The notes under the pieces are model-generated. The model did not search any database. It saw nothing but the letters and a program-made list of their open reading frames with translations, and was not told the origin of the DNA. Shown here piece after piece: positions 5,607-59,732 of a DNA stretch of 64,000 nt. Position numbers and translations under genes: made by a program. Positions within the stretch are counted from its first letter, which is position 1, and every line of letters begins with the position of its first letter. Origin of the DNA: Arcuatula senhousia (Eukaryota; Mollusca; Bivalvia; Mytilida; Mytilidae); the NCBI GenBank assembly GCA_963971305.1, contig OZ020303.1:15311184-15375183 (forward strand), given 5' to 3'.

Positions 5607-7359
5607 CGTTAACAATTTTAAAAAAATCTTCTCCTCTGAAACTACTGAACAGAATTGAATGAAACTTGGTATGATTGATCCTTAGGGTGTCCTGCACCAA
5701 ACTTGTGTTTCGATTTTTGATCTGTCAAAAAACATGGCTGCCGTTACTAAAAATAGACTAGGGGGGTCAGACTACTGTTTTTGGCTTATAAATCAAAAAG
5801 TATAAGAGATAGAGGAAATCTGAGGCCACGCTGCTGATTCAGCATCAAAAGCTCTACAAAAGTTTCCATTTGGTCAAAGTTGTCAGATGACCCCTTATAG
5901 GGGTAACGGCTCCTTAAAGGTGAAAAATAGCATTTTTTCATGTTTTTGGCCTACAGAATGAGAACTATTGCAGAAAGAGATTAGCTGTTGCTTGCTTAAA
6001 TGTTAAGCTCATTCAGCTCTACAAAAGTCTCCATAGGGTCGAAGTTGTCAGATGACCCCTTATAGGGGTTACGGCCTCTTAAAGGTGAAAAATAGCCATT
6101 TTTCATGTTTTTGGCCTACAGAATGAAAACTATTGCAGATAGAGATTAGCTGTTGCTTGCTTAAATGTTTAGCTCATTTAGCTCTACGAAAGTCTCCATA
6201 GGGCTGAAGTTGTCAGATGACCCCTTACAAGAGTTACGGCCCCTTAAAGGTGAAAAATAGCCATTTTTCATGTTTTTGGCCTACAGAATGAAAACTATTG
6301 CAGATAGAGATTAGCTGTTGCTTGCTTAAATGTTTAGCTCATTTAGCTCTACGAAAGTCTCCATAGGGCCGAAGTTGTCAGATGACCCCTTACAGGGGTT
6401 ACGGCCCCTTAAAGGTGAAAAATAGCCATTTTTCATGTTTTTGGCCTACAGAATGAAAACTATTGCAGATAGAGATTAGCTGTTGCTTGCTTATATGTTC
6501 AGCTCATTTAGCTCTACAAAATTCTCCATAGGGTAGAAGTTGTCAGATGACCCCTTATAGGGGTTACGGCCCCTGAAAAGACGATTTTTCATGTTTTTGG
6601 CCTACAGAATGAAAACTATTGCAGATAGAGATTAGCTGTTGCTTGCTTAAATGTTCAGCTCATTTAGCTCTACAAAATTCTCCATAGGGTCGAAGTTGTC
6701 AGATAACCCCTTATAGGGGTTATGGCCCCTGAAAAAAGCGATTTTTCATGTTTTTGGCCTACAGAATGAAAACTATTGCAGATAGAGATTAGCTGTTGCT
6801 TGCTTAAATGTTCAGCTCATTTAGCTCTACAAAATTCTCCATAGGGTCGAAGTTGTCAGATGACCCCTTATAGGGGTTACGGCCCCTGAAAAGACGATTT
6901 TTCATGTTTTTGGCCTACAGAATGAAAACTATTGCAGATAGAGATTAGCTGTTGCTTGCTTAAATGTTCAGCTCATTTAGCTCTACAAAATTCTCCATAG
7001 GGTAGAAGTTGTCAGATGACTCCTTATAGGGGTTATGGCCCCTGAAAAAAGCGATTTTTCATGTTTTTGGCCCACAGAATGAAAACTATTGCAGATAGAG
7101 ATTGCCTGTTGCTTGCTTAAATGTTCAGTTCATTTAGCTCTACAAAAGTCTCCATAGGGTCGAAGTTGTCAGATGACTCCTTATAGGGGTTATGACCCCT
7201 TATAGGTGAAAAATGGTGTTTTTGGCCTATCAAATGAAAACTATTGCAGGTAGAGAAAAGCTGTTGCTTGCTTAAATGTTCAGCTCATTTAGCTCTACAA
7301 AAGTATAGGGTCAACATCAAGACCAGGTGAGCGATTCAGGCTCCTGGGAGCCTCTTGTT
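5505..7359 (+). mobile_element. AGCTCACCTG-family repeat, copy A, with nine core repeats
   Basis: The left end AGCTCACCTGGACC forms a hairpin with GGTCCATGTGAGCT. The right end is CCAGGTGAGCGATTCAGG followed by CTCCTGGGAGCCTCTTGTT. Inside, the motif GTTGTCAGATGACCCCTTA recurs near 5879, 6046, 6210, 6376, 6540, 6696, 6852, 7009 and 7167, giving nine units of about 157-167 bp. The same ends occur at five other places in the window. No protein is encoded, so the element is non-autonomous or structural. Confidence 0.85.
5556..5606. repeat. (TCG)n microsatellite inside copy A
   Basis: About 17 uninterrupted TCG triplets next to the left terminus. Other copies have GTCCGTCGTCGTC or GTCCGTCCGT at the same place, so this is an expansion of a family motif. 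The poly-arginine open frame on the other strand is a by-product. Confidence 0.95.
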
Positions 7360-19195: not shown

Positions 19196-22100
19196 GTACA
19201 TAAAAACCAGTGAACACCAACATTAATTTCATAAAATCATCTCAAACAGGTAATATCAGTCTCAGTCTCACTCTCACTCTCAGCAAAGAATTCTTTGGTG
19301 TCAGACTCAGAGCACAGGCACTTGTTTCTATAAAATAAAGAGCTCTTTATTTTATGCATACTCGACCCCCTATTATTGATAGAAACACAGGGACTTGCTC
19401 CCCTCTATCAATATTTTGTTAGAGTCAATGTGCGGTAGGAAAAAAACACAAGGGAGATACTACTTTCACCACCCCCCTTTTCTTTAATTCGATTTCCTTT
19501 TAATATATCGGATCTCCTGTACTTGGCGATCACAATACTGGTATACCAGTATTGTTAACAATACTGGAATAAAATTTTATTCCAGTATTGTTGATTTTTT
19601 TTCAAAAAAGTAACAATACTGGGATATATTGATGTTCCAGTATTGTTCCTCGAGTATCATGAGTAATGCATTATGTTATGGACGTGTATATTATAGATAT
19701 AATGAGACCTTTCTAACTACTTGTTTGCCCTTTTAAGAAATTAATCAAAATAATTTATTAATGGATATCTATGTAAAAGTTTCATTTAGTTTTGATGAGA
19801 AATAATAAACTTTTTATGAAAACTCCAACTCACAGATCAACTCTAATAAACAGGTCTTTGATTATGTTTTTATGTTATATATAATTTGTGTAAGTTAATT
19901 TGTCATTTATTTTGTTTATATGTGTTTTGGTTTTTTTTGTAAGAATGAATAAGCATTTGCTACATTGTTTCTCTTTGTAATTTAAAATTGTATTCCATAA
20001 ATCAATATCATTTATTAAAAAGCAATAAGATCTCCTTTATACTTTATCATGTTTATTGTACAATAAATTAACAAAATAAAGATATAATTGTTAACATAAG
20101 AAGACAAAGGTTTTCAAATGACATACATTCAGAGTTTGTGAGTCACAAATTAAACTTTGTACTGCTCAGCAATATGTGCAATGATGTTCCTGTAGGCATC
20201 ACTGTCTGAAGATCCCCATCTGTCTCTCCACATTCTTTCATCAAGGTAACTTGGAAGCAGGTCTGATGACACCCCTTTCATTTCTTTAAACTTCTGTTTT
20301 GCTTTGGCCCAATACGACTCTATAGCTTGAGTATGAACACCAGTCTCGGGATCTACAAAGTTAACAGAATGGTTGACTGTTCCATGCTCTACTTGTAGTT
20401 GGCTGCTGATGTTGTGGTATGCCTTCCATTGGTCAGAATAAATAACTGTACCAGGACGAACTACTCTTTCGATGATTGGAAGAAGGGTCTTTGCATCTCT
20501 TTTGTCTACAGTCTCTAAATAGGTGATTGCAGGCTTTGTTGATGTGTCTGCAAGACCAAATACCCACTGTTCCTTGCTGGCTCTTCTTCCCCGGTTGTAT
20601 TTGGATTTGTGGTTGAAAAGGCTCTCATCAATTTGTACCACAACGCCTGGTCCTCCTAGTTGAACTGGTGTGTTCAGAAGTTTGGTTGAACATATATCTC
20701 TCAGGTACTGGAACATCTGGAAAACAGTCTTTTCACCAATCTGTGTTTGTTGCTGAACAGTCTTGACCTTACTGCCTTGGCTCCACAAGTATATAGTTAG
20801 TAACCATTTATCCAGAGTGATGCGTGACTTCTCGAAGAATGATCCTGTGCGAATGGTGATAAAGGTTCTGCCCTTAGTACACCTCTGGTTATTACAACGC
20901 CACCCAAAACCGTCTGCTGTTGCTGATGTTGGTCTGCTGACAAGTTCCATCTGACTTTGACATGTTGGACAGGTGCAAGACTGTGCAAGTAGTTTTTTAT
21001 CTTTCATGTAGTTCATCACTGCATCTGGCTGTGGACTGAAGATAACATTTGGTGCAAGGTATGTGTAGAAGTCATCCATGATTTCAACTTTATGTTGAAT
21101 ATCATTTGAGCAACCATATTTATGGTGAAATTGGGCTTGTGTACACTATAATTATTCTTAGAATCAAAGAAATATAAACATCAAAGTCTACTCATGATTA
21201 TGAAGTTTTTTTTTATACTTCAAAGAATCCTTTGATAATTAATAATTGTAATCCTTCTGATGTGATAACTTCAAAAAGTTTAATTGTTTTTTTTAATTAT
21301 GTCATCAACAATAATTATGATCTAATAATCACAACTAATGGTTAAAATTATCTAAAATTAAATTACCAATCAATCCCTAATTGTCAAATATTATTATGTG
21401 TTTAAGAGTTATAAGATTAATTTTGCTTGATTTTTTTTGAATTTGCATTTTCCAAGTTCTTTTAACTAAAACTAATGAATAAATAACCATTAAATAAAAT
21501 TAGAATTTAAAAGTAATTACAGATGGGTGCACACATAACCTGTACGGTAAGTTAACTTGAGAAGCAGACATCAAGTTAACTTCAAGTTCACTTGCGACTG
21601 GTCATGCGACTGCTTTGAGCAGACGCGCGACTGGTTCCAAGTTAACTTGAAAAGCAGTCATAATTCCACGTCTGCTATTAAAAGCAGTCACATAATTATG
21701 ACAGGTCTGGTCAAGTTAACTTCGTGAAATGTCTGCTTTAAAAACTGAATGTAAAAGGAGAAAAAATTATGTTCTTTTGCCTAAACTGTATTTGAAACTC
21801 CTTGTTTTATGCATATTGTGCTTACAATGTTATATAGTGCTGTTATTAAATTATGGTTTACCTTGATATATACACATGTACATACTAGCAAAAGTACTTG
21901 TAATAAAGTTTTGAAAATTAAGGTGGTTTTTTTTCAAGAACTTGTCATATAATCTTATGCATCTTTAAATACATAGATATATAACAGAAAGCAATAAAAA
22001 CATCAATGACAAATGACACATTTTAAGAAGAAGCCAAATTTCAAAACCATAAAATGTACAATATGTGTCAAATAAAACAACAAAGACAAATGACACATTT

Positions 22101-28100: not shown

Positions 28101-31100
28101 CATGTTGCGGTCGTATCATGCTGCGCTGGGCGAAGCTTTTTATTTGGTATATTTTACTGATAAAAAATTCTGTAGAAAAATATTTTTTGACATTTTTGCA
28201 GTTAGACTTAAAATTTCCATGGGGACACTAATATAATCTTATATTTGACATTCATACCGCTAGTGCAGTTAATGGACAGTGACATTGATACGCAGGGTGC
28301 CATGTGAGCTTATGCCATTATGCGTCCGTCGTCGTCCGTTAACAATTTCTAAAATCTTCTTCTCTGAAACCACTGAACCAATTTTAATACAAATATTCAT
28401 GATCAAATCATTTTATCCACTTAAGAAAACTTCTTATTGCTTTGAGGTTTGTGGCCACTACTGTTCAATCAAAGTACCGTTGGTACCATGTATTTGGAAG
28501 TCACATTAGAACGAAGGCAAGCTTTGTGGTTTATAACTTTTTCAATAAAAGAAGGCAATTACTGAATTTAGATATATCTACATTTATGTATGAACCACCC
28601 TTTCTTACAATGATATGAAATCGATATAACTACATGTATTTTTCGTTAACTTTTAGCTGAGAAAATCATTAGTTAAATTATCTCAGCTATTATAAAAAGC
28701 ATTAATGTTTTTTTCTATAATTTGTATATTCCCGCTAAAATATATTTCCCCATCGCACAGGTGACTAAAGTCACATGATACACAAAAATGTAGTTTTTAA
28801 AAGATTATGAAAAATATAGCAAATACTATATCATCATTCATGTCATTTAAAACAAAATAAATTAACAAATCTAGTAATAACTAGCTATAATTTGTGTTGG
28901 GATGCCAACACACAAGTCGCCCAAAATCGCCTTGGATACTGTTTTTTCCCATTCAGTGCAATAAAATATGTATAGAAATAAAATTTCATTGAAATCGGAC
29001 AAAGTTCACATTTCTAAGGGGGGCGGGTGTAGTAAAATGGCCGCCATTTTGAAACCGGAAGTCGGATTTCAAATCTGGTTGCAGATTTGAATTCAGCATA
29101 CCCGTTTTACCCAGATGACCAATTTTCAAGACGATCCGATGAAAAAAAAATTTCCGCCCACTTTTTCCGACGGCCGCCATTTTGAAACGGCGGCCATCTT
29201 GAAAATTTCAAAACTTGATTACACGCCTTTGAGTGACCCACTATCCAATCCAACAAGTGTTATTCAATTTCCTTGAACCATTTTCTTGTATTAGGGAGGA
29301 CAACTTTACGATAAAGAATCAGAAGAATAACAAGGTATAATTGTGTTGGGATGCCAACACACAAGTCGCCCAAAATCGCCTTGGATAGAGTTTCAATCAA
29401 ATCAGTGCATCAAAATAAGTCTAGAAATCAAATTTCGTTGAAATCGGACAAAGTTGACGTTTTTAGGGGGGGCGGGTGTAGTAAAATGGCCGCCATTTTG
29501 AAACCGCAAGTCGGATTCCAAATCCGGTCGCAGATTTGAGCTCAGCATACCCGCTTTACCCAGATGACCAATTTTCAAGACGATCCGATGAAAAAAAAAT
29601 TTCCGCCCACTTTTTCCGATGGCCGCCATTTTGAAACGGCGGCCATCTTGAAAATTTTAAAAGTGCATTACACAACTTTGAGTGACCCACTATCCTATCA
29701 AACAAGTGTTATTCAATTTCTTTTAACCGTTTTCTTGTATTAGGGAGGACAAATTCTCGATAAAGAATCAGAAGAATAATAATAATAACTAGTGCTGATT
29801 GTGTTGGGATGCCAACACATAAGTCGCCCAAAATCGCCATGGATAGTATTCCATTCAAATCAGTGCATCAAAATAAGTCTAGAAATCAAATTTCGTTGAA
29901 ATCGGACAAAGTTTACGTTTTTTTGGGGGCGGGTGTGGTAAAATGGCCGCCATTTTAAAATGGCGGCGTTCGCGTCAATTTTTTTTTTCGCCCAGTTGCT
30001 CAAGATGGATCACTCTACCAGTGTACCAATTTTCATTAAAATCCATCCACCCATCTCCGAGATCTGAGATCGGGCCAAAAATCTTTAACGGCGGCCATTT
30101 TGAATATGGCGGCCATATTGAAAATTTCAAAAGTGGATTGCACACCCTAAAGTGACCCCCTACCATCTCCAATAAGTTTTATTTCAATTGGTCAAAGCGT
30201 TTGCCCACAATACGTCGGACAAGTTCACTATTAAGAAAGGAAAAAAATAAAAAAAATAATAATAAGAAACGGTGCAAAAACAATAAGTCTCCCAAACTTT
30301 GTTTTGGGCGACTTAATAAGAATAATAATAATAATAATAATAATAAGAAACGGTGCAAAAACAATAAGTCTCCCAAACTTTGTTTTGGGCGACTTAATAA
30401 TAATAACTAGATATAAATGCCATTTCAAGAAATAGCAGATGTCACTCCACTTTGTGTGTGAAGTTTATTAAGTGCATGTTATAAGCTCTGTCAAATAGAA
30501 TATGTCATCATGACCTTTACCTTTGTATTACTCAATGATAGGTTTATTAATAGACATAATTGTATCAGGATGACACATGTTGACAGAAAATCAATACAAA
30601 CCTAGCATACAATATGTCATCATGACCTTGTCTTAACAAAATTTTCCATGAGTCATCATAATGATATGTTTATAAATAGATATGATGCTATCTTGACAGA
30701 AAATCAATACTAACTTGGCATTTTGCCAGTCAATGTTAATCCTATGGGAAAAACAGAAAATCTTTAATTGGCGATTATTTGAAAATGCCTGCTTCGATCA
30801 ACTTAAAAAAAAAAACTGATAAAAATTTAAATCATAGTCTAAGCATACTTAAAATTTCAAAACATTTAATCAAGTGGTTTTCTTAAAAAGCTTTGGACAA
30901 AACTCATTATTTACCTGTAGCAGACGACGCATGTTAACTGAGAAAATCAATACCAACTTGGCTTTCTGCCAGCCAATGTTAAACCTATGGGAATTTTAAA
31001 ATTTTAAAATCTATATAATTTAAAAATGGCTGCTTTGATTTTGAAAAAAAAGTTTCAGGAATGAATTCAAACTAAAGTCTACGTGCATTTAAAATTTCAA

Positions 31101-34100
31101 GTCTTTTGGTCGGGTAGTTTTCTCAAAAACACTCGGACAAAATTCATTGGAATAATAATAATAATAACAAGATATGATTGTGTTGGGATGCCAACACACA
31201 AAGTCTCCCAAACGATTAAATAAGTAACAACTCCAAAATGAAGGCTTCCCTTTGTCCCAATGTTCGAAGATCGTCATGAAAATTCAATATATTTTGAATA
31301 TAATAAGTAAATTGAAAATAATGCAACAGGTATAGTTAAATTTTAAAATTTGCAAATATTTTATATTTATTAAAGATCTTTTGTAAACCAATAAATGAGA
31401 ATAGTTCAAAATTGTTGTAGAAAAAGAAATAAAGCTTTATTTTTTCTATTGTAAAAAGGAAGAGTGTGAAAATAATAATTTTAAAAAATAAAGGGAGATA
31501 ATACACCCATCTTGCTGAAGGTCAAGGGTCAATTGGTCCCTCCCTAACATAGTCCCTAAAAAAGTGAAATTAATGATGACAGGCAGGGTTTTAAACTTTC
31601 AAATTTATTCCATTATAATAAGCTGAAATAACAATGTAAATATTTAGTTGAATGAAAGCAACCTCATCATCTCAATATTTATGTCTCATTTTAAAAAGTG
31701 TATGAATAATGTTTATTTTGCTGTGAAATGGTCTCACATGGAAAAAAAAATATAGAAATTGCAATAAGACTTTCAGAAAATTGTAAACTATGATGACATT
31801 CCATTTACATGTACATGTTTTCTACCAATATAACTATATTTACAAGATCCACCGAGAAGATTTTTGTTTTTTCCATTGAACTCGGAGCATCATGTTTAAC
31901 TCGAAAACCGTTGGTCAGATTTTTTCATGACTCACCCCTTTTTTGTAGCTTTTATAATGCTGATTTCAAATATCAAATCAGATTTTTGATAGGAGCACTT
32001 GATTTTTTTTCAGAATTTTTTTAAATTTTTTTATGTGATTTTTCAAAAATTCAAAAAAATACAAAAAAAAATTATGAAAAAAAAACTATACAAGATAGCA
32101 ATTTTTGGTCTTTTCCATTGAACTCGGAGCATCATGTTTAGCCCAGATACCAATGTTCATCAGAATCGGTCAACATTCCCAAAAATTAGCCGATTTTTGT
32201 CGGCCATTTTGAAATAGGCGGCCATCTTGAAAAATTCGAAAGTTTTGTGCACACCTTCATAACATGAATAACTCATATACCAAGTATGGTTTTGATCCGA
32301 AAAACCATCTCCGAGAAACCGGTCGGACAAGTTCATTGTAAAAAAAATCTGAAAAACCTGAGTAAAAACAATAAGTCTCCAAACTTCGTTTGGGAGACTT
32401 AATAATTACATACCGAAACTTTTTGCAGGCATTTTTTAACCGATCCTTCTGAAACTTGGTAAACATGTAGGACTAAGGCCAATGTAAAGAATTAATACCA
32501 AATAGATCAGATTCACAAGTCATAAGGGGTGCTGGGGGGTACAAGAAAGGGGGACCGTAGGCCAAAATGCCATGGTTTCGCACACAAAACTCCTTATAGC
32601 TCTCAAACAGTAAATCCAATCTGTATAAACAATACATATTATAAGATGCCTAACATGTACTTGAACTCAATACGGTAATCGTTTCAATGTAAGAGGTCCA
32701 TTGCGAAAATAAGGGGGTCCAAAGGAGGGGTGGGGTCACTTCGGAAAAAATTTCAAAACTGTATAACTCGAAAACCGTTGGTCAGATTTTTTCATGACTC
32801 ACCCCTTTTTTGTAGCTTTTATAATGCTGATTTCAAATATCAAATCAGATTTTTGATAGGAGCACTTGATTTTTTTTCAGAATTTTTTTAAATTTTTTTA
32901 TGTGATTTTTCAAAAATTCAAAAAAATACAAAAAAAAATTATGAAAAAAAAACTATACAAGATAGCAATTTTTGGTCTTTTCCATTGAACTCGGAGCATC
33001 ATGTTTAGCCCAGATACCAATGTTCATCAGAATCGGTCAACATTCCCAAAAATTAGCCGATTTTTGTCGGCCATTTTGAAATAGGCGGCCATCTTGAAAA
33101 ATTCGAAAGTTTTGTGCACACCTTCATAACATGAATAACTCATATACCAAGTATGGTTTTGATCCGAAAAACCATCTCCGAGAAACCGGTCGGACAAGTT
33201 CATTGTAAAAAAAATCTGAAAAACCTGAGTAAAAACAATAAGTCTCCAAACTTCGTTTGGGAGACTTAATAATTACATACCGAAACTTTTTGCAGGCATT
33301 TTTTAACCGATCCTTCTGAAACTTGGTAAACATGTAGGACTAAGGCCAATGTAAAGAATTAATACCAAATAGATCAGATTCACAAGTCATAAGGGGTGCT
33401 GGGGGGTACAAGAAAGGGGGACCGTAGGCCAAAATGCCATGGTTTCGCACACAAAACTCCTTATAGCTCTCAAACAGTAAATCCAATCTGTATAAACAAT
33501 ACATATTATAAGATGCCTAACATGTACTTGAACTCAATACGGTAATCGTTTCAATGTAAGAGGTCCATTGCGAAAATAAGGGGGTCCAAAGGAGGGGTGG
33601 GGTCACTTCGGAAAAAATTTCAAAACTGTATAACTCGAAAACCGTTGGTCAGATTTTTTCATGACTCACCCCTTTTTTGTAGCTTTTATAATGCTGATTT
33701 CAAATATCAAATCAGATTTTTGATAGGAGCACTTGATTTTTTTTCAGAATTTTTTTAAATTTTTTTATGTGATTTTTCAAAAATTCAAAAAAATACAAAA
33801 AAAAATTATGAAAAAAAAACTATACAAGATAGCAATTTTTGGTCTTTTCCATTGAACTCGGAGCATCATGTTTAGCCCAGATACCAATGTTCATCAGAAT
33901 CGGTCAACATTCCCAAAAATTAGCCGATTTTTGTCGGCCATTTTGAAATAGGCGGCCATCTTGAAAAATTCGAAAGTTTTGTGCACACCTTCATAACATG
34001 AATAACTCATATACCAAGTATGGTTTTGATCCGAAAAACCATCTCCGAGAAACCGGTCGGACAAGTTCATTGTAAAAAAAATCTGAAAAACCTGAGTAAA

Positions 34101-37100
34101 AACAATAAGTCTCCAAACTTCGTTTGGGAGACTTAATAACTAGATATAAATGCCATTTCAAGAAATAGCATATGTCACTCCACTTAGTGTGTAAAGTTTA
34201 TCAAGTACATGTTATAAGCTCATTGAATTATTATATGTCACCATGACATTTACCTTTGTTCAAGTAAAATTTTTTCACAAGATTTATAATTATAAATTAC
34301 TCAATGAAAGGTCTATAAATAGAAATTACAGCAGCAGGATGACACATGTTGACAGAAAATCAATACAAACTTGTCATGTTAATAGTTTAATAAGCTCTTC
34401 AATGAATTACATTATGTCATCATGACCTTTACTTTTGTCCTAACAAAATTGTCCATGAGTCATCCTAATGATGTTTATAAATAGAAATGACACATGTTGA
34501 CAGAAAATCAATACAAACTTGTCTTTAGAAATTACAATATGTCATCATGACCTTTACCTTTGACCTATCAAAATTTTCCATGAGTCATCATAATGATATA
34601 ATGATATGTTTATAAATAGAAATGACTCTAGCATCTTGACAGAAAATCAATACTAACTTGGCATGTTGCCAGTTAATGTTAAACCTATGGGGAAAACAGA
34701 AAATCTTTAATTGGTGATAATTTGAAAATGCCTGCTTCGATCCACTAGAAAAAAAAATTGATAGAAATTTAAATTATCGTCTAAGCATACTTAAAATTTC
34801 AAAACATTTAATCAAGTGGTTTTCTCAAAAAGCTTTGGACAAAACTCATTTACCTGTAGCAGACGACGCATGTTAACTGAGAAAATCAATACCAACTTGG
34901 CTTTCTGCCAGCCAATGTTAAACCTATGGGAATTTTTAAATTTTAAAATCGCTTTAATTTAAAAATGGCTGCTTCAATTGAAAAAAAATTAATTTTGGTA
35001 TAACTTCATATTCAAGTCTAAGTACATTTCAAATTTCAAGTCTTTTGATCCAGTAGTTTTCTCAAAATCGTTCGGACAAAATCATTGGAAAAATAATAAT
35101 AATAATAACAAGATATGATTGTGTTGGGATGCCAACACACAAAGTCTCCCAAACGATTAAACAAGTAACAACTCCAAAATGGAGGCTTCCCTTTGTCCCA
35201 ATGTTCGAAGATCATCACAAAAATTTAATATATTTTGTATATAATAAGTGCAACGGGTATAGTTGAATTTTAAAATTTGCAAATATTTTATATTTATTAA
35301 AGATCTTTTGTAAACCAATAAATGAGAATAGTTCAAAATTGTTGTAGAAAAAGAAATAAAGCTTTATTTTTTCCATTGTAAAAGGACGAGTGTGAAAATA
35401 ATAATTTTAAAACATAAAGGGAGATAATACACCCATCTTGCTGAAGGTCAAGGGTCAATTGGTCCCTCCCTAACATAGTCCCTAAAAAGTGAAATTGATG
35501 ATGACAGGCAGGGTTTAAAACTTTCAAATTTATTCCATTATAATAAGCTGAAATAACAATGTAAATATTTAGTTGAATGAATGCAACCTCATCATCTCAA
35601 TATTTATGTCTCATTTGTAAAAGTGTATGAATAATGTTTATTTTGCTGTGAAATGGTCTCACATGGAAAACAAAAAAAATATAGAAATTGCAATAAGACT
35701 TTCAGAAAATTATAAACTATGATGATATTCCATTTACATGTTTTCTACCAATATAACTATATTTTCGAGATCCATCAGGAAGATTTTTGTTTTTTTCCAT
35801 TGAACTCGGAGCATCATGTTTAGCCCAGAAACCAATATTCATCAGAATCGGTCAACATTCCCAAAAATTAGCCGATTTTTGTCTGCCATTTTGAAATAGG
35901 CGGCCATCTTGAAAAATTCGAAAGTTTTGTGCACACCTTCATAACATGAATAACTCACATACCAAGTATGGTTTTGATCTGAAAAACCATCTCCGAGAAA
36001 CCGGTCGGACAAGTTCATTGTAAAAAAAATCTGAAAAACCTGAGTAAAAACAATAAGTCTCCAAACTTCGTTTGGGAGACTTAATAATTACATACCGAAA
36101 CTTTTTGCAGGCATTTTTTAACCGATCCTTCTAAAACTTGGTAAACATGTAGGACTAAGGCCAATGTAAAGAATTAATACCAAAAAGATCAGATTCACAA
36201 GTCATAAGGGGTTCTGGGGGGTACCAGAAAGGGGGACCGTAGGCCAAAATGCAATGGTTTCGCACACAAAACTCCTTATAGCTCTCAAACAGTAAATCCA
36301 ATCTATATAAACAATACCTATTATAAGATGCCTAACATGTACTTGAACTCAATACGGTAATCGTTTCAATGTAAGAGGTCCATTGTGAAATTAAGGGGGT
36401 CCAAAGGAGGGGTGGGGTCACTTCGGAAAAAATTTCAAAACTGTATAACTCGAAAACCGTTGGTCAGATTTTTTCATGACTCACCCCTTTTTTGTAGCTT
36501 TTATAATGCTGATTTCAAATATCAAATCAGATTTTTGATAGGAGTACTTAATTTTTTTTTAGAATTTTTTTTAAATTTTTTATGTGATTTTTCAAAAATT
36601 AAAAAAAATACACAAAAAAATATGAAAAAAAAACTATACAAGATAGCAATTTTTGGTCTTTTCCATTGAACTCGGAGCATCATGTTTAGCCCAGAAACCA
36701 ATATTCATCAGAATCGGTCAACATTCCCAAAAATTAGCCGATTTTTGTCTGCCATTTTGAAATAGGCGGCCATCTTGAAAAATTCGAAAGTTTTGTGCAC
36801 ACCTTCATAACATGAATAACTCACATACCAAGTATGGTTTTGATCTGAAAAACCATCTCCGAGAAACCGGTCGGACAAGTTCATTGTAAAAAAAATCTGA
36901 AAAACCTGAGTAAAAACAATAAGTCTCCAAACTTCGTTTGGGAGACTTAATAATAACTAGATATAAATGCCATTTCAAGAAATAGCACATGTCACTCCAT
37001 TTTGTGTGTGAAGTTTATCAAGTACATGTTATAAGCTCATTGAATTATTATATGTCACCATGACATTTACCTTTGTTCAAGTAAAATTTTTTCACAATAT

Positions 37101-40100
37101 TCATAATTAAAAATTACTCAATGAAAGGTCTATAGATAGAAATTACTGCAGCAGGATGACACATGTTGACAGAAAATCAATACAAATTTGTCATGTCAAT
37201 AGTTTTATAAGCTATTCAATGAATTACATAATGTCATCATGACCTTTACTTTTTGTCCTAACAAAATTGTCCGTGAGTCATCCTAATGATGTTTATAAAT
37301 AGAAATGACACATATTGACAGTAAATCAATACAAACATGTCTTTATAAATTACAATATGTCATCATGACCTTTATCTTTGTCCCATCAAAATTTTCCATG
37401 AGTCATCATAATGATATGTTTAAAAATAGAAATGACTCTAGCATCTTGACAGAAAATCAATACTAACTTGGCATGTTGCCAGTTAATGTTAAACCTATGG
37501 GGAAAACAGAAAATCTTTAATCGGCGATAATTTGAAAATGTCTGCTTCGATCCACTAGAAAAAAAATTTGATAAAACTTTAAATTATAGTCTAAGCATAC
37601 TATAAATTTTGAAACATTTAATCCAGTGGTTTTATCAAAAAGCTTTGGACAAAACTCATTATTTACCTGTAGCAGACGACGCATGTTCACTGAGAAAATC
37701 AATACCAACTTGGCTTTCTGCCAACCAATGTTAAACCTATGGGAATTTTTAAATTTTAAAATCGCTATAATTTAAAAATGGCTGCTTTGATTTCGAAAAA
37801 AAAGTTTTAGATATAAATTCAAACAAAAGTCTAGGTGCATTTAAAATTTCAAGTCTTTTGGTCAAGTAGTTTTCTCACATTAGTCTGGACAAAATTCATT
37901 GGAAAAATCAGAATAATAACTAGATATAAATGCCATTTCAAGAAATAGCATATGTCACTCCACTTTGTGTGTAAAGTTTATCAAGTACATGTTATAAGCT
38001 CATTGAATTAATATATGTCACCATGACATTTACCTTTGTTCAAGTAAAATTTTTTTCACAAGATTTATAATTATAAATTACTCAATGAAAGGTCTATAAA
38101 TAGAAATTACAGCAGCAGGATGACACATGTTGACAGAAAATCAATACAAACTTGTCATGTTAATAGTTTAATAAGCTCTTCAATGAATTACATTATGTCA
38201 TCATGACCTTTACTTTTGTCCTAACAAAATTGTCCATGAGTCATCCTAATGATGTTTATAAATAGAAATGACACATGTTGACAGAAAATCAATACAAACT
38301 TGTCTTTATAAATTACAATATGTCATCATGACCTTTACCTTTGACCTATCAAAATTTTCCATGAGTCATCATAATGATATAATGATATGTTTATAAATAG
38401 AAATGACTCTAGCATCTTGACAGAAAATCAATACTAGCTTGGCATGTTGCCAGTTAATGTTAAACCTATGGGGAAAACAGAAAATCTTTAATTGGTGATA
38501 ATTTGAAAATGCCTGCTTCGATCCACTAGAAAAAAAAATTGTTAGAAATTTAACTTATCGTCTAAGCATACTTAAAATTTCAAAACATTTAATCAAGTGG
38601 TTTTCTCAAAAAGCTTTGGACAAAACTCATTTACCTGTAGCAGACGACGCATGTTAACTGAGAAAATCAATACCAACTTGGCTTTCTGCCAGCCAATGTT
38701 AAACCTATGGGAATTTTAAAATTTTAAAATCGCTTTAATTTAAAAATGGCTGCTTTAATTGAAAAAAAAATTAATTTTGGTATAACTTCATATTCAAGTC
38801 TAAGTACATTTCAAATTTCAAGTCTTTTGATCCAGTAGTTTTCTCAAAATCGTTCGGACAAAATCATTGGAAAAATAATAATAATAACTAGATTTAAATG
38901 CCATTTCAAGAAATAGCAGATGTCACTCCACTTTGTGTGTGAAGTTCATTAAATACATGTTATAAGCTCTTTTAATTTCTATATGTCATCATGACCTTTA
39001 CCTATGTTCAAGCAAAATTTTCCATGAGTCATCATTATGATAGATTTATAAATAGGAATTACTCAATGAATGGTTTATAAATAGAAATTACTGCAGCAGC
39101 ATGACACATGTTGACAGAAAATCAATACAAACTTGTCATGTTAATAGTTTTATAAGCTCTTCAATAAATTACATAATGTCATCATGACCTTTACCTTTGT
39201 CCTAACAAAATTGTCCATGAGTGATCCTAATGATGTTTATAAATAGAAATGACACAAATTGACAGAAAATCAATACAAACTTGTCTTTATAAATTACAAT
39301 ATGTCATCATGACATTTACCTATGTCTTATCAAAATTTTCCATGAGTCATCATAATGATATGTTTATGATTAGAAATGACTCTAGCATCTTGATAGAAAA
39401 TCAATACTAACTTGGCAAGATGCCAGTCAATGTTAAACCTATGGGGAAAACAGAAAATCTTTAACTGGCAATAATTTTAAAACGCCTTCTTCAATCAACT
39501 AAAAAAAAATTTTGATAGAAATTTAAATTATAGTCTAAGCATACTTTAAATTTTGAAACATTTAATCAAGTGGTTTTCTCAAAAAGCTATGGACAAAACT
39601 CATTTACCTGTAGCAGACGACGCATGTTAACTGAGAAAAATCAATACCAACTTGGCTTTCTGCCAGCCAATGTTAAACCTATGGGAATTTTTAAATTTTA
39701 AAATCGCTTTAATTTAAAAATGGCTGCTTAAATCGAAAAAAAAAATAATTTTGGTATAACTTCATATTCAAATCTAAGTACATTTAAAATTTCAAGTCTT
39801 TTGATCCAGTAGTTTTCTCAAAATCGTTCGGACAAAATTCATTGGAAAAATAATAATAATAACTAGATTTAAATGCCATTTCAAGAAATAGCAGATGTCA
39901 CTCCACTTTGTGTGTGAAGTTCATTAAATACATGTTATAAGCTCTTTTAATTTCTATATGTCATCATGACCTTTACCTATGTTCAAGCAAAATTTTCCAT
40001 GAGTCATCATTATGATAGATTTATAAATAGGAATTACTCAATGAATGGTTTATAAATAGAAATTACTGCAGCAGCATGACACATGTTGACAGAAAATCAA

Positions 40101-43100
40101 TACAAACTTGTCATGTTAATAGTTTTATAAGCTCTTCAATAAATTACATAATGTCATCATGACCTTTACCTTTGTCCTAACAAAATTGTCCATGAGTGAT
40201 CCTAATGATGTTTATAAATAGAAATGACACAAATTGACAGAAAATCAATACAAACTTGTCTTTATAAATTACAATATGTCATCATGACATTTACCTATGT
40301 CTTATCAAAATTTTCCATGAGTCATCATAATGATATGTTTATGATTAGAAATGACTCTAGCATCTTGATAGAAAATCAATACTAACTTGGCAAGATGCCA
40401 GTCAATGTTAAACCTATGGGGAAAACAGAAAATCTTTAACTGGCAATAATTTTAAAACGCCTTCTTCAATCAACTAAAAAAAAATTTTGATAGAAATTTA
40501 AATTATAGTCTAAGCATACTTTAAATTTTGAAACATTTAATCAAGTGGTTTTCTCAAAAAGCTATGGACAAAACTCATTTACCTGTAGCAGACGACGCAT
40601 GTTAACTGAGAAAAATCAATACCAACTTGGCTTTCTGCCAGCCAATGTTAAACCTATGGGAATTTTTAAATTTTAAAATCGCTTTAATTTAAAAATGGCT
40701 GCTTAAATCGAAAAAAAAAATAATTTTGGTATAACTTCATATTCAAATCTAAGTACATTTAAAATTTCAAGTCTTTTGATCCAGTAGTTTTCTCAAAATC
40801 GTTCGGACAAAATTCATTGGAAAAATAATAATAATAACTAGATATAAATGCCATTTCAAGAAATAGCACATGTCACTCCATTTTGTGTGCAAAGGTTATC
40901 AAGTACATCTTAAAAGCTCTTTGAATTACTATATGTCATCATGACATTTACCTTTGTTCAAGCAAAATTATAAATAGAAATTACTGTATCAGAATGACAT
41001 ATGTTTACAGAAAATCAATACAAACTTGGCATAATTTCAGTCAATTTTAAACCTTCCAATGAATTACAATATGTCACCATGACCTTTACCTTTGTCCTAA
41101 CACAATTTTCCATGAGTCATCATAATGATATGTTTATAAATAGAAATGACTAAATCTTGACAGAAAATCAATACTAACTTGGCATGTTGCCAGTCAATGT
41201 TAATCCTATGGGGAAAACAGAAAATCTTTAATTGGCGATAATTTGAAAATTCCTGCTTCGATCAACTTAAAAATTTTTTTGATAAAACTTTAAAATTATA
41301 GTCTTAACATACTTGAAATTTCAATATATTTAATCAAAAGGTTTTCTCAAAAAGCTTTGGACAAAACTCATTATTTACCTGTAGCAGACGACGCATGTTA
41401 ACTGAGAAAATCAATACCAACTTGGCTTTCTGCCAGCCAATGTTAAACCTATGGGAATTTTTGAATTTTAAAATCAATTTAATTTAAAAATGGCTGCTTT
41501 GATTGACTAAAAAAATAAATTTGGTATAAATTCAAATGATTATCTAATTACATTTAAATTTGCAAAACATTTGATCAAGCGGTTTCCTCAAATATCCCTG
41601 GACAAAATTCATTGGAAGGAGAATAATAATAATAAGAAGAAACATAGAATAACAACATGTCACATCCACGATGTGGAGTGACATAATAATAATAAGAAGA
41701 AACGTAGAATAACAACATGTCACATCCACGATGTGGAGTGACATAATAATAATAAGAAGAAACGTAGAATAACAACATGTCACATCCACGATGTGGAGTG
41801 ACATAATAATAATAATAAGAAGAAACGTAGAATAACAACATGTCACATCCACGATGTGGAGTGACATAATAATAATAATAAGAAGAAACGTAGAATAACA
41901 ACATGTCACATCCACGATGTGGAGTGACATAATAAGAAGAAACGTAGAATAACAACATGTCACATCCACGATGTGGAGTGACATAATAATAAGAAGAAGA
42001 AGAAACGTAGAATAACAACATGTCACATCCACGATGTGGAGTGACATAATAATAATAACTAGCTATAATTTGTGTTGGGATGCCAACACACAAGTCGCCC
42101 AAAATCGCCTTGGATACTTTTTCTTCCCATTCAGTACAATAAAATATGTATAGAAATCAAATTTCATTGAAATCAGACAAAGTTCACATTTTCAAGGGGG
42201 GCGGGTGTAGTAAAATGGCTGCCATTTTGAAACCGGAAGTCGGATTTCAAATCTGGTCGCAGATTTGAATTCAGCATACCCGCTTTACCCAGGTGACCAA
42301 TTTTCAAGACGATCCGATGAAAAAAAAATTTCCGCCCACTTTTTCAGACGGCCGCCATTTTGAAACGGCGGCCATCTTGAAAATTTCAAAACTTGATTAC
42401 ACGCCTTTGAGTGACCCACTATCCAATCCAACAAGTGTTATTCAATTTCCTTGAACCGTTTTCTTGTATTAGGGAGGACAGCTTTACGATAAAGAATCAG
42501 AAGAATAATAATAATAATAACGAACGCATTTTTGACCTCATTATAAGATTCGCCATCTTTTAGAACCCCTAGCTACAAAATTTTGTCGAAATCGAAACAT
42601 TTTGACGATTTTCGCATTTTCGGGCCCGAAAAATCACATTTTCGCAAATAACTCGAAAACCGTAAATACCGCTTCAAATTTTTTTTTCGTATTATTGAAG
42701 AGCTCCTTTTGCTCTATTCACCTACAAAATTTCAGCCTCCTACGCACCTAGGTTACCGAGATATTGCAATGTCCTATATTATGAACTTTCGCTAATTACA
42801 CGGAAACGGTGGCCATTTTGAAAATTTCAAAATGTCCGTGCACAACTTCAGTAACCAATCTACCATCCTACAATGTTTCGTGAAAATCCTTCGACTCGTT
42901 TCAAAGAAAACTACCGGACACGTTCATGGGAAGAAAGAAGAAAAAAAATAATAAAAAGAATAAGAAACGGAGTAAAAACAATATGTCTCCAAACTTTCGT
43001 TTGGGAGACATAATAAGAAACGGTGCAAAAACAATAAGTCTCCCAAACTTTGTTTTGGGCGACTTAATAAGAAACGGTGCAAAAACAATAAGTCTCCCAA

Positions 43101-46100
43101 ACTTTGTTTTGGGCGACTTAATAAGGGGTTATACTAACATAGATGTAGATAAGAAAGCTTGTTGACCAAAAAAATAAACACACACATGACACTTCTACTG
43201 GAGAACGAATGCACAATAGAATAGGTTATACGGTCTCAGGGAAAAAACGCTGATAGATTTCTTCGAAATCATTACTATAAAAGGTAAAAAGGAGGCAAAA
43301 GGGACAAAAAGGATGGTTTAACGTGTTATAGTTTAATCTGATTATCTGATGAGCACTCTTTTAATAATCATTGTATTCCTCAATAAAATTTCAGTATTTA
43401 ATAATATCTCACAGTAGTTTAACCATGTCTCTAAAAATAATTCAAAAAAGAGAAAAAAAAAATTAAAAAAACTGTCGTGACTGTATGTTTGTATTTATCT
43501 GTTTTAGTATAGTGCAATTGATACCAGCCCTGTCAGTAAATACATTACACACCCATTTTGGAACTGGGTAGTTGAGGTAAGTGATAGGTAATTAATTTAT
43601 CTAAATTATTGTTTGATGTAAATGAATTCCCTTTGATTTAGAGCTGTCTTTATATTCACATAGGTTAGTAAGCCTGAAGTCACTCTATACATTTTATCTA
43701 AATGACATTTGCAATAACAATTTTGATGCAAGGCACATTTCTGTTTTGATATCAATATTTCAGCTAGTATTATTTACTATAATTTTAGTTTTATCCAAGA
43801 TGGTTGGCTCCAAATCTACTGACATTAACAGGGTTCCTGCAATTAGTAGGGAATTTTTTCCTCTTGACATATTATGACAGGGATTTTTATGCTGCAAGTG
43901 GAGATCACCCAGAACATCCCCCTATACCTAATTGGGTGTGGTTAATTTGTGGACTGAATATGTTCCTATCACACACATTAGGTGAGTACTTGTAGATCAT
44001 TGATGAAATTTCAAATCAAACAGGAAGCAGACATGGGGTAATTGTAATCGGTAATAATAATCCATTGTAATTAATTACAATTTTTCAAGTAATCGAGAAT
44101 AATCGAATACTTTCTTGAATTTCGATTACTTGTAATAAAAAATAATCAATAACTGATTGCGCACAATTATAAAAAACCTTCTGGGACTTCTTGTTTCATA
44201 ACCAATTTTTTTTGTCAAACAGGGAGGTAAGGGGCGTGCCCGTTACGCCTTTCCTAGATCCGCCTTTGCTCTTGTTCATAATAATGCAAATGTATGCCAT
44301 AAAAAGTAGAGGAAGAGAAAATGTAGATATTTTGTCACTTCTTATTATCAATTTTTATTAGCTCACCTGGACCGAAGGTTCATGTGAGCTATTGCCATCA
44401 CTTGGCATCCGTCGTCGTCCTCGTCTGTTAACAATTTTTCAAATTTCTCCTCTGAAACTACTGAACAGAATTTAATGAAAATTGGTATGATTGATCCTTA
44501 GGGTGTCCTGCATAAAAGTTGTGTTTCAATTTTTGATTCGTTAAAAAACATGGCCGCCCTGGCTAAAAATAGAACAGGGGGGTCAGACCGTCAGACTACT
44601 GTTTTTGGCTTGTAATTCAAAAAGTATACGAAATAGTTGAAATCTGATGCCACGCTACTGCTTCAGGATCATAAGTTCTACAAATGTCTCCATTTGGTCA
44701 AAGTTGTCAGATGACCCCTTATAGGGGTTATGGCCCCTTAAAGGTGAAAAATAGCATTTTTTCATGTTTCATGTTTTTGTCCTATAGTATGAAAACTATT
44801 GCAGATAGAGAAAAGCTGTTGCTTGCTTAAATGTTCAGCTCATTAAGCTCTACAAAAGTCTCCATAGGGTCGAAGTTGTCAGATGACCCCTTATAAGGGT
44901 TACAGCCTCTTAAAGGCGAAAAATAGTGTTTTTGGCCTATAAATGAAAACTATTGCAGATAGAGAAAAGCTGTTGCTTGCTTAAATGTTCAACTCATTTA
45001 GCTCTACTAGAGTTTTCATAGGGTCAAAGTTGTCAGAAGTCCCCTTATAGGGGTTACAGCCCCTTAAAGGCAAAAAATAGTGTTTTTGACCTGTAGAATG
45101 AAAACTATTGTAGATAGAGAAAAGCTGTTGCTTGCTTAAATGTTCAGCTCATTTAGCTCTACAAAAGTCTTCATAGTGTCGAAGTTGTCAGATGACCCCT
45201 CATAGGGTTACAGCCCCTTATAGGCGAAATATAGTGTTTTTGGCCTGTAGAGTGAAAACTATTGCAGATAGAGAAAAGCTGTTGCTTGCTTAAATGTACA
45301 GCTCATTTAGCCCTAGTAAAGTCTTCATAGGGTCGAAGTTGTCAGATGACCCCTTTTAGGGGTTACAGTCCCTAAATTAACATGTTTTCATGTTTTTGGC
45401 TTATATAATGAAAACTATAGCAGAAAAAGAAAATTGGTTGGTTGCTTTAATGTACGGTTCATTAAGCTCTCAACAAAAGTCTCTATAGAGTCAAAGTTGT
45501 CAGACAACCCTTAAAATAACATGTTTCACGTTTTTAGCCTACAGAATGAAAACTATTGCTGAAAGAGAAAAAGCTGTTGGTTGCTTAAATGTTCAGCTTA
45601 TTTAGCTTTACAAAGATCTTCATAGGGTCAACATCAAGACCAGGTGAGCGATTCAGGCTCCTGGGAGCCTCTTGTAAAGTTCTACTTCTTGAAATTTATA
45701 ATTAACATGATTAAACATGTTACATATATACTAGTATCAATAAATTGAACTTATTCAGATGGAACTGATGGTAAGCAGGCCAGAAGAACCAAGTCCAGTA
45801 GTCCCCTGGGAGAATTGTTTGACCATGGGTTAGATAGCTGGGCAGCTTTATTTATACCTGTAGCTATGTACTCTGTATATGGAAGAGGAGAATGTGGTGT
45901 GGATGTGTTTAGGGTCTACCTTGTCTCCATTGGTGTACAGTTTTGTTTTATGCTCTCACATTGGGAGAAGTACATCACTGGAGTGTTGTTTTTACCATGG
46001 GGATATGACTTGAGTCAGATTGTAAGTTTAAGTTTAGTACTGGTATAAAGATTTTCTTTAAAATTAAAGATCAGCTGGTAGCAGATCTGAAGAAGAAAAA

Positions 46101-53406: not shown

Positions 53407-54192
53407 TTGTTATTTATAATTAACCCTTACTATGCTGACTTGTTTTTCAAAAATAATCAAGACAATCACCAGACAATGAATATGCTTATTAGACCCTCTC
53501 TTACATGTATATATGACATGTTTATGGCCAAGCTACAAAAAGACCCAAACAAAAACCACCTTATCGAATCTTTTAACAATACATATAGGTACTTAGATGA
53601 CATACTTGCTCTAAACAACCCCACATTCTCAAATTTAATAAATGATATATATCCTTAAGAATTAACCCTAAATAAAGCAAACTCGACCGACAGTAGATGT
53701 CCATTTCTAGATTTGGACTTAAGCATTATGATTGGTAGATTACACACTAAAGTATATGATAAACGGGATGACTTTTCATTCCCAATAGTTAATTTTCCGT
53801 TTCTTGAAGGAGACATACCATTAGCTCCAGCTTACGGGGTATACATTTCACAATTAGTCAGGTATGCTCGCATTTGCAGTGATGTGTTTGATTTTAATGA
53901 TAAAAACCGTTTTATTACAGAAAAATTGCTAAAACAAGGTTACCGTTACCACAAATTAGTCAAATCTTTTACAAAATTTGCTCATAAATATGGACATCTC
54001 ATCAAAAAATTTAATTGTACACGTAGATTTCTGATTGTTAAAGAAATATCTCATCCTGATTTTTATAGCAATGTAGTTTATAAAGCACAAAAATTCAAAA
54101 ACAACCTTATGGAAATTAAAAACTGGCTTAAAAACCTTTTGAAAAAAGGATACGAATTCAATGTTTTAGTAAAATCTTTGCATTTGGTATGA
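53407..54192 (+). pseudogene. Reverse transcriptase fragment of a retroelement, one internal stop
   Basis: One frame reads through 53407-54192 with a single TAA (53656-53658). It contains the RT catalytic box in FNNTYRYLDDILALNN, then FPFLEGDIPLAPAYGVYISQ and LLKQGYRYHKLVKSF, motifs of a retroelement RT family spread through bivalves and other marine invertebrates. The N-terminal RT motifs before YLDD are missing or cut short, so it is a 5'-truncated, inactive copy. I do not assign the retroelement class with certainty. Confidence 0.75.
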
Positions 54193-58600: not shown

Positions 58601-59732
58601 AGAGGTTTAATATTAGGTCAGTGAAGTTGGTGAGCCATGAAGCACCTGTTGTTAGTATTAAATCATGAAGCATATCAATTCAGGTGGAAATTTAAATGGA
58701 TCTCACCTGTCCAATAATTACTGATCAAATGGTCAGTCTGATCCATTTAAATTTCTACCTAAAGTGATATTCTTTTTATGAGTTTTACTTCAACAGGTGT
58801 TTCATGGCTGACCAACTTCACTGACCTAATTTTAAACCTCTTTCTTCTCTTAAGACACCTAATTGTCAAACCTGTTGGTGTCATTTAAATTCAATTGATA
58901 AAGGTACCACTATTCTGAATTTAACGTTTGAAAAATTGTTTACAGACGACGACGGACGCCAAGTGATGATAAAAGCTCACATGGACCTTTGGTCCAGGTG
59001 AGCTAAAAAGCTGTTGCTTGCTTAATTGTTCAGCTCATTTAGCTCTACAAAAGTCTTCATAGGGTCGAAGTTGTCAGATGACCCCTTATAGGTGTTACAG
59101 CCCCTTAAAGGCAAAAAATAGCGTTTTTGGCCTACAGAATGAAAACTATTGCAGATAGAGAAAAACTGTTGCTTGCTTAATTGTTCAGCTCATCGAGTTT
59201 TACAAAAGTCTTCATAGGGTTGAAGTTGTCAGATGACCCCTTATAGGGGTTACGGCCCCTTAAAGGCAAAAAATAGTGTTTTTGGACTATAGATTTAAAA
59301 CTATTGCAGACAGAGAAAAGCTGTTGCTTGCTTGAATGTTCAGCTCATTTAGCTCTACAAAAGTCTTCATAGGGTCGAAGTTGTCAGATGACCCCTTATT
59401 GGGGTAACAGCCCCTTTAAGGCAAAAAATACTGTTTTTGGCCTACGGAATGAAAACTATTGCATACAGAGAAAAGCTGTTGCTTGCTTAAATGTTCAGCT
59501 TATTTAGCTCTACTGAAGTGTTCTAAGGTCGGAGTTGTCAGATGATCCCTTTAAGGGGTTATGGCCCTTTTAAGGTGAAAAATAGTGTTTTTCGCTTATA
59601 GAATGAAAACTATTGCAGATAGAGAAAAGCTTTTTCCTGCTTAAACACTCAGCTCAATTAGCTATACAAAAGTCTTCATAGGGTTGACATGAAGACCAGG
59701 TGAGCGAATCAGGCCCCTGGGAGCCTCTTGTT
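55655..59732. mobile_element. Mosaic of four AGCTCACCTG-family segments
   Basis: A plus-orientation left end is at 55655. Minus-orientation right ends (AACAAGAGGCTCCCAGGAGC) start at 56206 and 56774. The second minus copy closes at 59004 with GGTCCAGGTGAGCT. A plus segment of copy-A-type units runs 59005-59732 to a CCAGGTGAGCGAATCAGG end. The pattern is that of copies inserted into, or recombined with, each other. Confidence 0.8.
58514..58920. mobile_element. Fold-back element nested in the mosaic
   Basis: Two arms of roughly 140 bp (from CAGAATAGTGGTACC at 58525 and ending GGTACCACTATTCTG at 58917) are inverted copies with few mismatches. They share TTAGGTGTCTTAAGAGAAGA. About 120 bp separates them. 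Flanking host sequence suggests insertion at TTA. Confidence 0.8.

Follow-up and report, generated by a model that had tools for sequence, protein, structure and literature searches.

The DNA considered here, hereafter the window, is a stretch of 64,000 nucleotides from the genome of the bivalve Arcuatula senhousia (assembly GCA_963971305.1, contig OZ020303.1, positions 15,311,184 to 15,375,183), in which positions 28881-43124 are occupied by a chain of elements lying on the minus strand, with no unique DNA seen between its members. This region is very probably a nested stack, built in the manner of Russian dolls, of non-autonomous rolling-circle transposons of the Helentron type (HINEs). The joining of elements tail to head through (TAA)n, proposed in an initial annotation, is confirmed, each of the 13 heads of the window directly following AATAA on the plus strand (13/13). 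The two alternating families described at the time turn out to be more than two, namely A (seven copies), G (four), P (two) and X (one), P having a G-like hairpin but a different body and a different subterminal motif.

Architecture of the chain

The heads are the 3' ends of Helentron-type (HINE) elements read on the minus strand, and the direction originally assigned to head and tail is reversed, the (TAA)n belonging to the 5' end. On the plus strand, the terminal letters of the heads are CTAG in ten cases out of 13 and CAAG in the other three (at 29331, 31168 and 35109). Read on the minus strand, a 3' end comprises a subterminal motif (TTTTGGGCGACTT in G, GTGGAGTGACAT in A), a hairpin, about 11 nt, CTAG or CTTG and then TT; at all 13 window 3' ends the stem is 8-9 bp long and lies 10-12 nt from the terminus, CTAG/CTTG being included in this count. 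A 5' end comprises a subterminal repeat (AAGTCGCCCAAAA in G, ATGTCACTCCAC in A), a complementary arm, a leader and usually (TTA)n. The subterminal motifs of the two ends are inverted repeats of each other, and in the window they reach at least 11 bp at both ends (AAGTCGCCCAAAA/TTTTGGGCGACTT in G, ATGTCACTCCAC/GTGGAGTGACAT in A). These 3' hairpin ends and subterminal inverted repeats uphold the Helentron-like rolling-circle process, one of the two models first suggested. Hairpin, leader and (TTA)n are all present in G3 and A7; in X the TAA run is short and broken, and in P1 and P2 the hairpin is present with no internal (TTA)n. The hairpin units are clustered, with two at 30285-30395, seven at 41657-42047 and three at 42983-43119, to which five within P1 and P2 are added. 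Neither Rfam nor ARAGORN gave any match on the window.

By type, four G heads, seven A heads and one truncated element stand against four, seven and one hairpins, in a balanced order that can be written G1 ( G2 ( G3 () ) A1 ( P1 () A2 ( P2 () A3 ( A4 ( A5 ( A6 ( A7 () )))))) G4 ( X ) ). The outermost member, G1 (28881-29330), has its 3' terminus at 28881 and a body extending up to (TAA)n, and mirror order gives it the 5' module at 43090-43119. The interrupted G2 (29331-29788, CAAG on the plus strand) is assigned the displaced hairpin module at 30366-30395, which carries AAGTCGCCCAAAA on the minus strand, while G3 (29789-30314) is complete, with its own 5' hairpin at 30285-30314 and a central part unlike that of the other G copies. 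Six interrupted A elements come next, each with an assigned 5' module: A1 at 30407-31167 (module 42020-42047), A2 at 34140-35108 (41957-41984), A3 at 36957-37919 (41903-41930), A4 at 37920-38887 (41840-41867), A5 at 38888-39862 (41777-41804) and A6 at 39863-40837 (41717-41744). The innermost and complete A7 (40838-41684) keeps its own 5' hairpin at 41657-41684 and is the sole one of the seven to combine an AGGAG body end with an ACATAG leader; the six displaced A modules (41717-42047, starting at 41717, 41777, 41840, 41903, 41957 and 42020) all have the leader ACGTAG. A5 and A6 are 100% identical over 975 bp.

The two P elements, devoid of internal (TTA)n, are both uninterrupted (2/2). P1 (31168-34139) has a G-like 3' hairpin and 867-bp direct repeats, the internal unit being repeated identically (867/867), with 5'-type hairpins at 32373, 33240 and 34107; P2 (35109-36956) has 5'-type hairpins at 36055 and 36921. 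A 5'-type hairpin thus recurs at each 867-bp period of P1, and the 5' part of this family seems to be duplicated together with its hairpin. On the right, the interrupted G4 (42059-42519) is followed by X (42520-43011), an h1-type element that lacks its 3' terminus and has its own 5' hairpin at 42983-43011, then by the displaced 5' modules assigned to G4 (43036-43065) and G1 (43090-43119), which together (43036-43119) form the right border of the chain. Relatives of X elsewhere in the genome do have a head, the best match being of 91.5% over 496 bp.

The sequence shows this end architecture and copies seated at TT, mostly inside the (TTA)n of another copy and in some cases exactly at the 5' edge of the host, with the host's 5' hairpin beyond the guest. 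In the proposed mechanism, a guest would enter at TT in the (TTA)n between the 5' hairpin and the body of its host, or at that edge; the host hairpin would thereby be pushed outward, and successive rounds would generate 5' ends in mirror order, the (TTA)n carried by each copy being the landing site for the next. Copying and insertion would be ensured by Helentron enzymes combining Rep, helicase and endonuclease, of which the product of C866, described below, would be an example. As TT occurs on one strand only of (TTA)n, insertion there would set the orientation and thereby explain the uniform strand of the members. Displaced hairpins as a record of nesting had no place in the initial annotation. 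Other processes probably play a part as well, namely deletion, duplication on a local scale and transposition of composites.

Target site and mirror order across the genome

The 1.036-Gb genome was searched with A4 as a query and 40 of 232 candidates were scored; at least 103 matches occur in the genome, fragments and the copies of the window itself being counted in. The 30 best loci (two of them in the window) were cut out and many were extended; 68 were fetched, and the first 64 together with the window made 28 stretches, which yielded 25 chains carrying one or more 5' modules, with 190 heads and 153 modules in all. Left out of the mirror-order counts were the minus strand of the window and the stretches devoid of any 5' module.

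In this A-centred sample, 190 3' ends were found by their internal motif and 188 of them show C[TA]AG where it is expected, as CTAG in 160/188 and as CTTG (CAAG on the plus strand) in 28/188. AA lies outside the terminus on the plus strand, i.e. TT on the element strand, in 187/188; this motif-based figure replaces an earlier count of preceding AA, 190/190, which was partly built into the detection. As for the sites, 139 lie in (TAA)2 or more, 14 lie exactly at the 5' end of another element, 28 lie in single TAA/GAA tails and seven lie elsewhere, five of these without a TAA repeat. The first suspicion, that elements enter the TAA repeat of an earlier one, is borne out, but what is required is TT rather than the TAA repeat as such; in the flanks of some outer copies, e.g. 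ATATGAA, TTAGAA and ATTTTAA, there is no TAA repeat. At the other end, AA follows the 5' modules on the plus strand in 152/153 cases, and it is TT that precedes the modules, rather than A followed by TC.

Independently of A, the pattern of the G 3' end has 2856 exact matches in the genome against none for the control, and among the first 100 listed, 69/99 neighbours are within 15 kb of each other (random mean 4.4, maximum 14 in 1000 draws). Strand is shared by 69/69 of these close neighbours and by 15/30 of the distant ones, and each of the 21 clusters with at least two members lies on a single strand. Prokaryote contigs, scanned for this G end, gave no match.

Where a module comes immediately after a head, the subterminal types, defined by their first eight bases, agree in 62/65 cases (shuffle mean 15.1, maximum 29 in 2000 shuffles), the three mismatches being G4 beside X in the window and two in C4:18512500; heads and hairpins are thus the two ends of one element. 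There remain 128 interrupted heads and 91 orphan modules, of which 53/91 pair with heads of the same type without crossing. This number is reached in none of 1000 shuffles of types across chains (mean 22.4, maximum 31 pairs), of types within chains (mean 41.5, maximum 48) or of order (mean 38.0, maximum 47), and reversing the order leaves 22 pairs. At C4:18512500, on the minus strand, a head of the AAGTCTCC type at 2364 has its partner in the final module at 13008, which is also of that type, and enclosed between them are h1(h2 h2)h1 and G(R R)G, where letters stand for subterminal types. The outermost matched ends are at most 10.6 kb apart in the sampled chains, compared with 14.2 kb in the window.

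A subfamily marker provides a further line of evidence. A body ending in AGGAG or AAGAG goes with the leader ACATAG in 7/7 complete A elements and the other body ends go with ACGTAG in 17/20, i.e. 24 concordant elements out of 27 scored (29 in all). Among displaced A pairs, assigned by mirror order among A ends only, the marker agrees in 22/22, 18 belonging to the common class and four to the rare one (permutation mean 15.4, P 0.0001). At C1059, the third module of five is ACATAG, precisely where mirror order puts an AAGAG host.

Weighing of the alternatives

Several observations weigh against nesting as the account of these chains, or at least do not assist it. All 25 chains originate from a single A query. 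In the fetched stretches, 75/128 interrupted heads have no partner module and 38/91 orphan modules have no partner head; the cutting of stretches explains some of these unpaired ends but not those of C13:33693500, with eight A heads for two A modules. Guests are not measurably younger than their hosts as judged by terminal branches, the longer branch being that of the host in 13 and that of the guest in 19 of 33 A pairs (one tie), and in eight and nine, respectively, of 18 G pairs (one tie); choosing the sample by similarity to A4 biases branch lengths, so that this comparison of ages does not decide, yet it lends no support. In the joined-flank comparison, where the host body end is put together with the displaced module, 51/51 are contiguous in an intact copy, but so are 51/51 in the other-type control (median identity of 93.0 for own type vs. 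85.7); one of the 51 has no own-type match and eight best matches are below 85% identity (range 73.3-99.4). Since the control passes as well, the comparison does not discriminate and is not used as evidence. Lastly, slippage could also yield near-identical modules such as those in the row of seven in the window.

At C13:33693500-33709500, four neighbours are 96-99.9% identical, and local duplication seems to have added units there.

Among the alternatives, mobilisation of composites, possibly alongside nesting, is a tenable if rather doubtful one: a stack would move as a unit and rows of modules or heads would arrive ready-made, the enzyme starting at the outer 5' end and stopping at the first 3' end or reading past one. 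Such a route has been proposed for the FoHelis of Fusarium, with several short 5' termini per 3' terminus (PMC5148889), and surplus modules or surplus heads do exist here (C13, C3:66345800). A second copy at 90% identity or more is found for 93/186 junctions; however, repeated insertion into the same microsatellite also predicts that junctions recur, so that this count does not separate the two. What a ready-made unit does not predict is that mirror order and the subfamily marker match displaced modules to heads of the same chain.

The initial annotation had named, as a case that would contradict it, the amplification of one composite as a satellite, which is rejected as the main cause. Unequal crossing-over or slippage of a composite or of a unit remains a minor local process and is very improbable as an explanation of the chains, despite the identity of A5 and A6, two C13 neighbours identical at 99.9%, the 867-bp unit of P1 and rows of near-identical 5' modules. 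Indeed, over 60 A copies, identity is 0.915 within chains (74 pairs) vs. 0.910 between chains (1696 pairs), which points to independent insertion rather than mainly to a satellite, A5/A6 and the C13 neighbours being local exceptions; in addition, the mirror order spans different types. The closest sampled relative of an A copy is in another stretch for 49/60 and on another contig for 45/60. For exact copies, assembly duplication may be involved. Regarding A6, a plain duplicate without its module would leave six modules where seven are seen, meaning that either it was inserted separately or its module was duplicated too.

It is very improbable that the chains are rolling-circle multimers, i.e. 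head-to-tail concatemers inserted in a single transposition event: complete A elements do alternate with exact end junctions at C4:28014000, but exact-end junctions also join A then G at C3:66345800, C10:23711158, C2:36338000 and C15:31476000, and A copies of one chain are on average some 9% different from one another. Target-primed reverse transcription as in long interspersed nuclear elements (LINEs), the other model originally suggested, can practically be discarded, for all that a microsatellite stands at one end and joining is frequent, as the (TAA)n stands next to a hairpin module with an arm that repeats, in inverted form, the subterminal motif of the opposite end, this opposite end is a Helitron-like 3' end, and only two frames of at least 110 aa occur in the chain, both reading through hairpin repeats, no family search having been made on those two.

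A candidate autonomous Helentron and other features of the window

At least 150 matches to the Helitron Rep family, all above cut-off, were found in the genome (of 345 candidates). At C866, an unbroken frame of 2330 aa (133264-140254) exhibits OTU, DUF6570, Helitron_like_N and PIF1 domains, in a scan without the last 85 residues, and an Exo_endo_phos domain at the C-terminus. Upstream of this frame, at 128716, lies a 5' module with AAATCCCC...GGGGATTT and the leader TTATTGTTTTTGCACCGTTTC, which is also present in G; downstream, at 143199, lies a 3' end with GGGGATTT, a hairpin, CTTG and then TT. The resulting candidate is 14,480 bp long, its end architecture matches that of the chain elements, and it is itself located within such a chain, its immediate neighbours being a G 3' end and an orphan AAGTCCCCGA module on the upstream side and a complete G copy on the downstream side. 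As a candidate for the autonomous element sharing the hairpin tails, which it had been suggested to look for, C866 has the architecture, the G leader and terminal bases close to those of G3, but its subterminal repeat AAATCCCC differs from those of both G and A. We infer that C866 could be the autonomous partner mobilising G or A.

The 3' end of C866 has 66 exact copies in the genome, which were set against the 150 Rep matches listed, by visual inspection. Among these, ends of the C866 type lie downstream of Rep in the right orientation at 7.1 kb (C866 itself), 13.1 kb (C4) and about 20 kb (C8), and three more lie near a listed Rep match on the wrong side; the candidate partner is restricted to C866. 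Another enzyme region (L065, C6:34130500) was set aside, its single 3'-end candidate being unlike the chain families. Just upstream of the Helentron frame of C866, at about 132700-133050 (L067), there is an apparent short HINE-like insertion in the opposite orientation, with ends of the ATGTCTCCC type.

Elsewhere in the window, an unbroken 331-aa frame on the minus strand (20150-21145) encodes an ISXO2-like transposase domain (Pfam DDE_Tnp_IS1595, 1.3e-21). Tandem repeats of 154-165 bp form arrays at 5850-7304, 44772-45504 and 59006-59684, the first array matching the other two in the same orientation, and they are possibly central repeats of other HINE-like elements. The frame at 53659-54192 (177 aa), for which a Pfam search gave no match, is similar to a 207-aa frame in the C5:52495418 stretch (L020), both having YISQLVRYARICS, and the two probably represent another transposon family.

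Related systems and significance

Helitron-like elements of Lepidoptera reportedly disrupt (GAAA)n microsatellites, as Coates is said to have described in 2010; both kinds enter a simple repeat, but in the present case this repeat is itself part of a like element. With canonical Helitrons (Helitron1), the chain elements share a 3' hairpin situated some 11 nt before a terminal CTAG and the occurrence of joined copies; in contrast to Helitron1, with its 5' TC, 3' CTRR and insertion between A and T, they insert at TT, possess subterminal inverted repeats and form mostly nested stacks instead of tandem multimers. Tandem insertions of Helitrons are on record in bat, Drosophila, rice, maize and plant centromeres (PMC5148889).

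The anatomy of Helentrons and of HINEs (DINE-1-like elements) is known from Drosophila and a mite (PMC4067079) and from the oyster Cg_HINE (PMC7492417), as far as the accessible portions of these sources go, and the likeness extends to the 5' subterminal inverted repeat, the complementary inverted repeat and the microsatellite, the 3' subterminal inverted repeat with its palindrome, the preference for TT and, for the partner enzyme, the endonuclease fused to Rep/helicase. Compared with what those portions describe, (TTA)n is here the main landing site, the chains are long, nested and composed of several families, and the 3' ends are mostly CTAG. The FoHelis of Fusarium (Helitron2) share other features: an asymmetric terminal inverted repeat, end hairpins, self-insertion and multiple 5' termini, self-insertion being proposed as the source of multiple 5' termini on one 3' terminus. 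Whereas the accessible text on FoHelis reports one nested case and some elements with multiple 5' termini (PMC5148889), 25 sampled chains and a testable mirror order are available here. A literature search, in which few subscription papers were covered, found no account of nested HINE chains formed via a self-carried microsatellite. Self-insertion and multiple 5' termini being already published, what looks new is the scale, together with a landing site carried by the elements themselves and a mirror order that can be read.

Beyond the description of the stacks, a tentative concept could be put forward, that of a guild of Helentron-type families which would keep (TTA)n as an integration platform, drawing insertions into elements, in one orientation and away from genes, with stacks that would be readable insertion histories as well as composites that may move again as units. 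On a practical level, repeat libraries derived from chains of this sort may cut elements at the wrong places and in the wrong orientation. The target choice of Helitrons and the formation of their arrays are poorly understood; if the nested reading is true, many nested copies would offer an insertion series ordered by position with a clear target, i.e. TT in a self-carried TTA repeat, and a structural reason for uniform orientation together with a candidate enzyme nearby would make the rules of targeting and termination amenable to testing.

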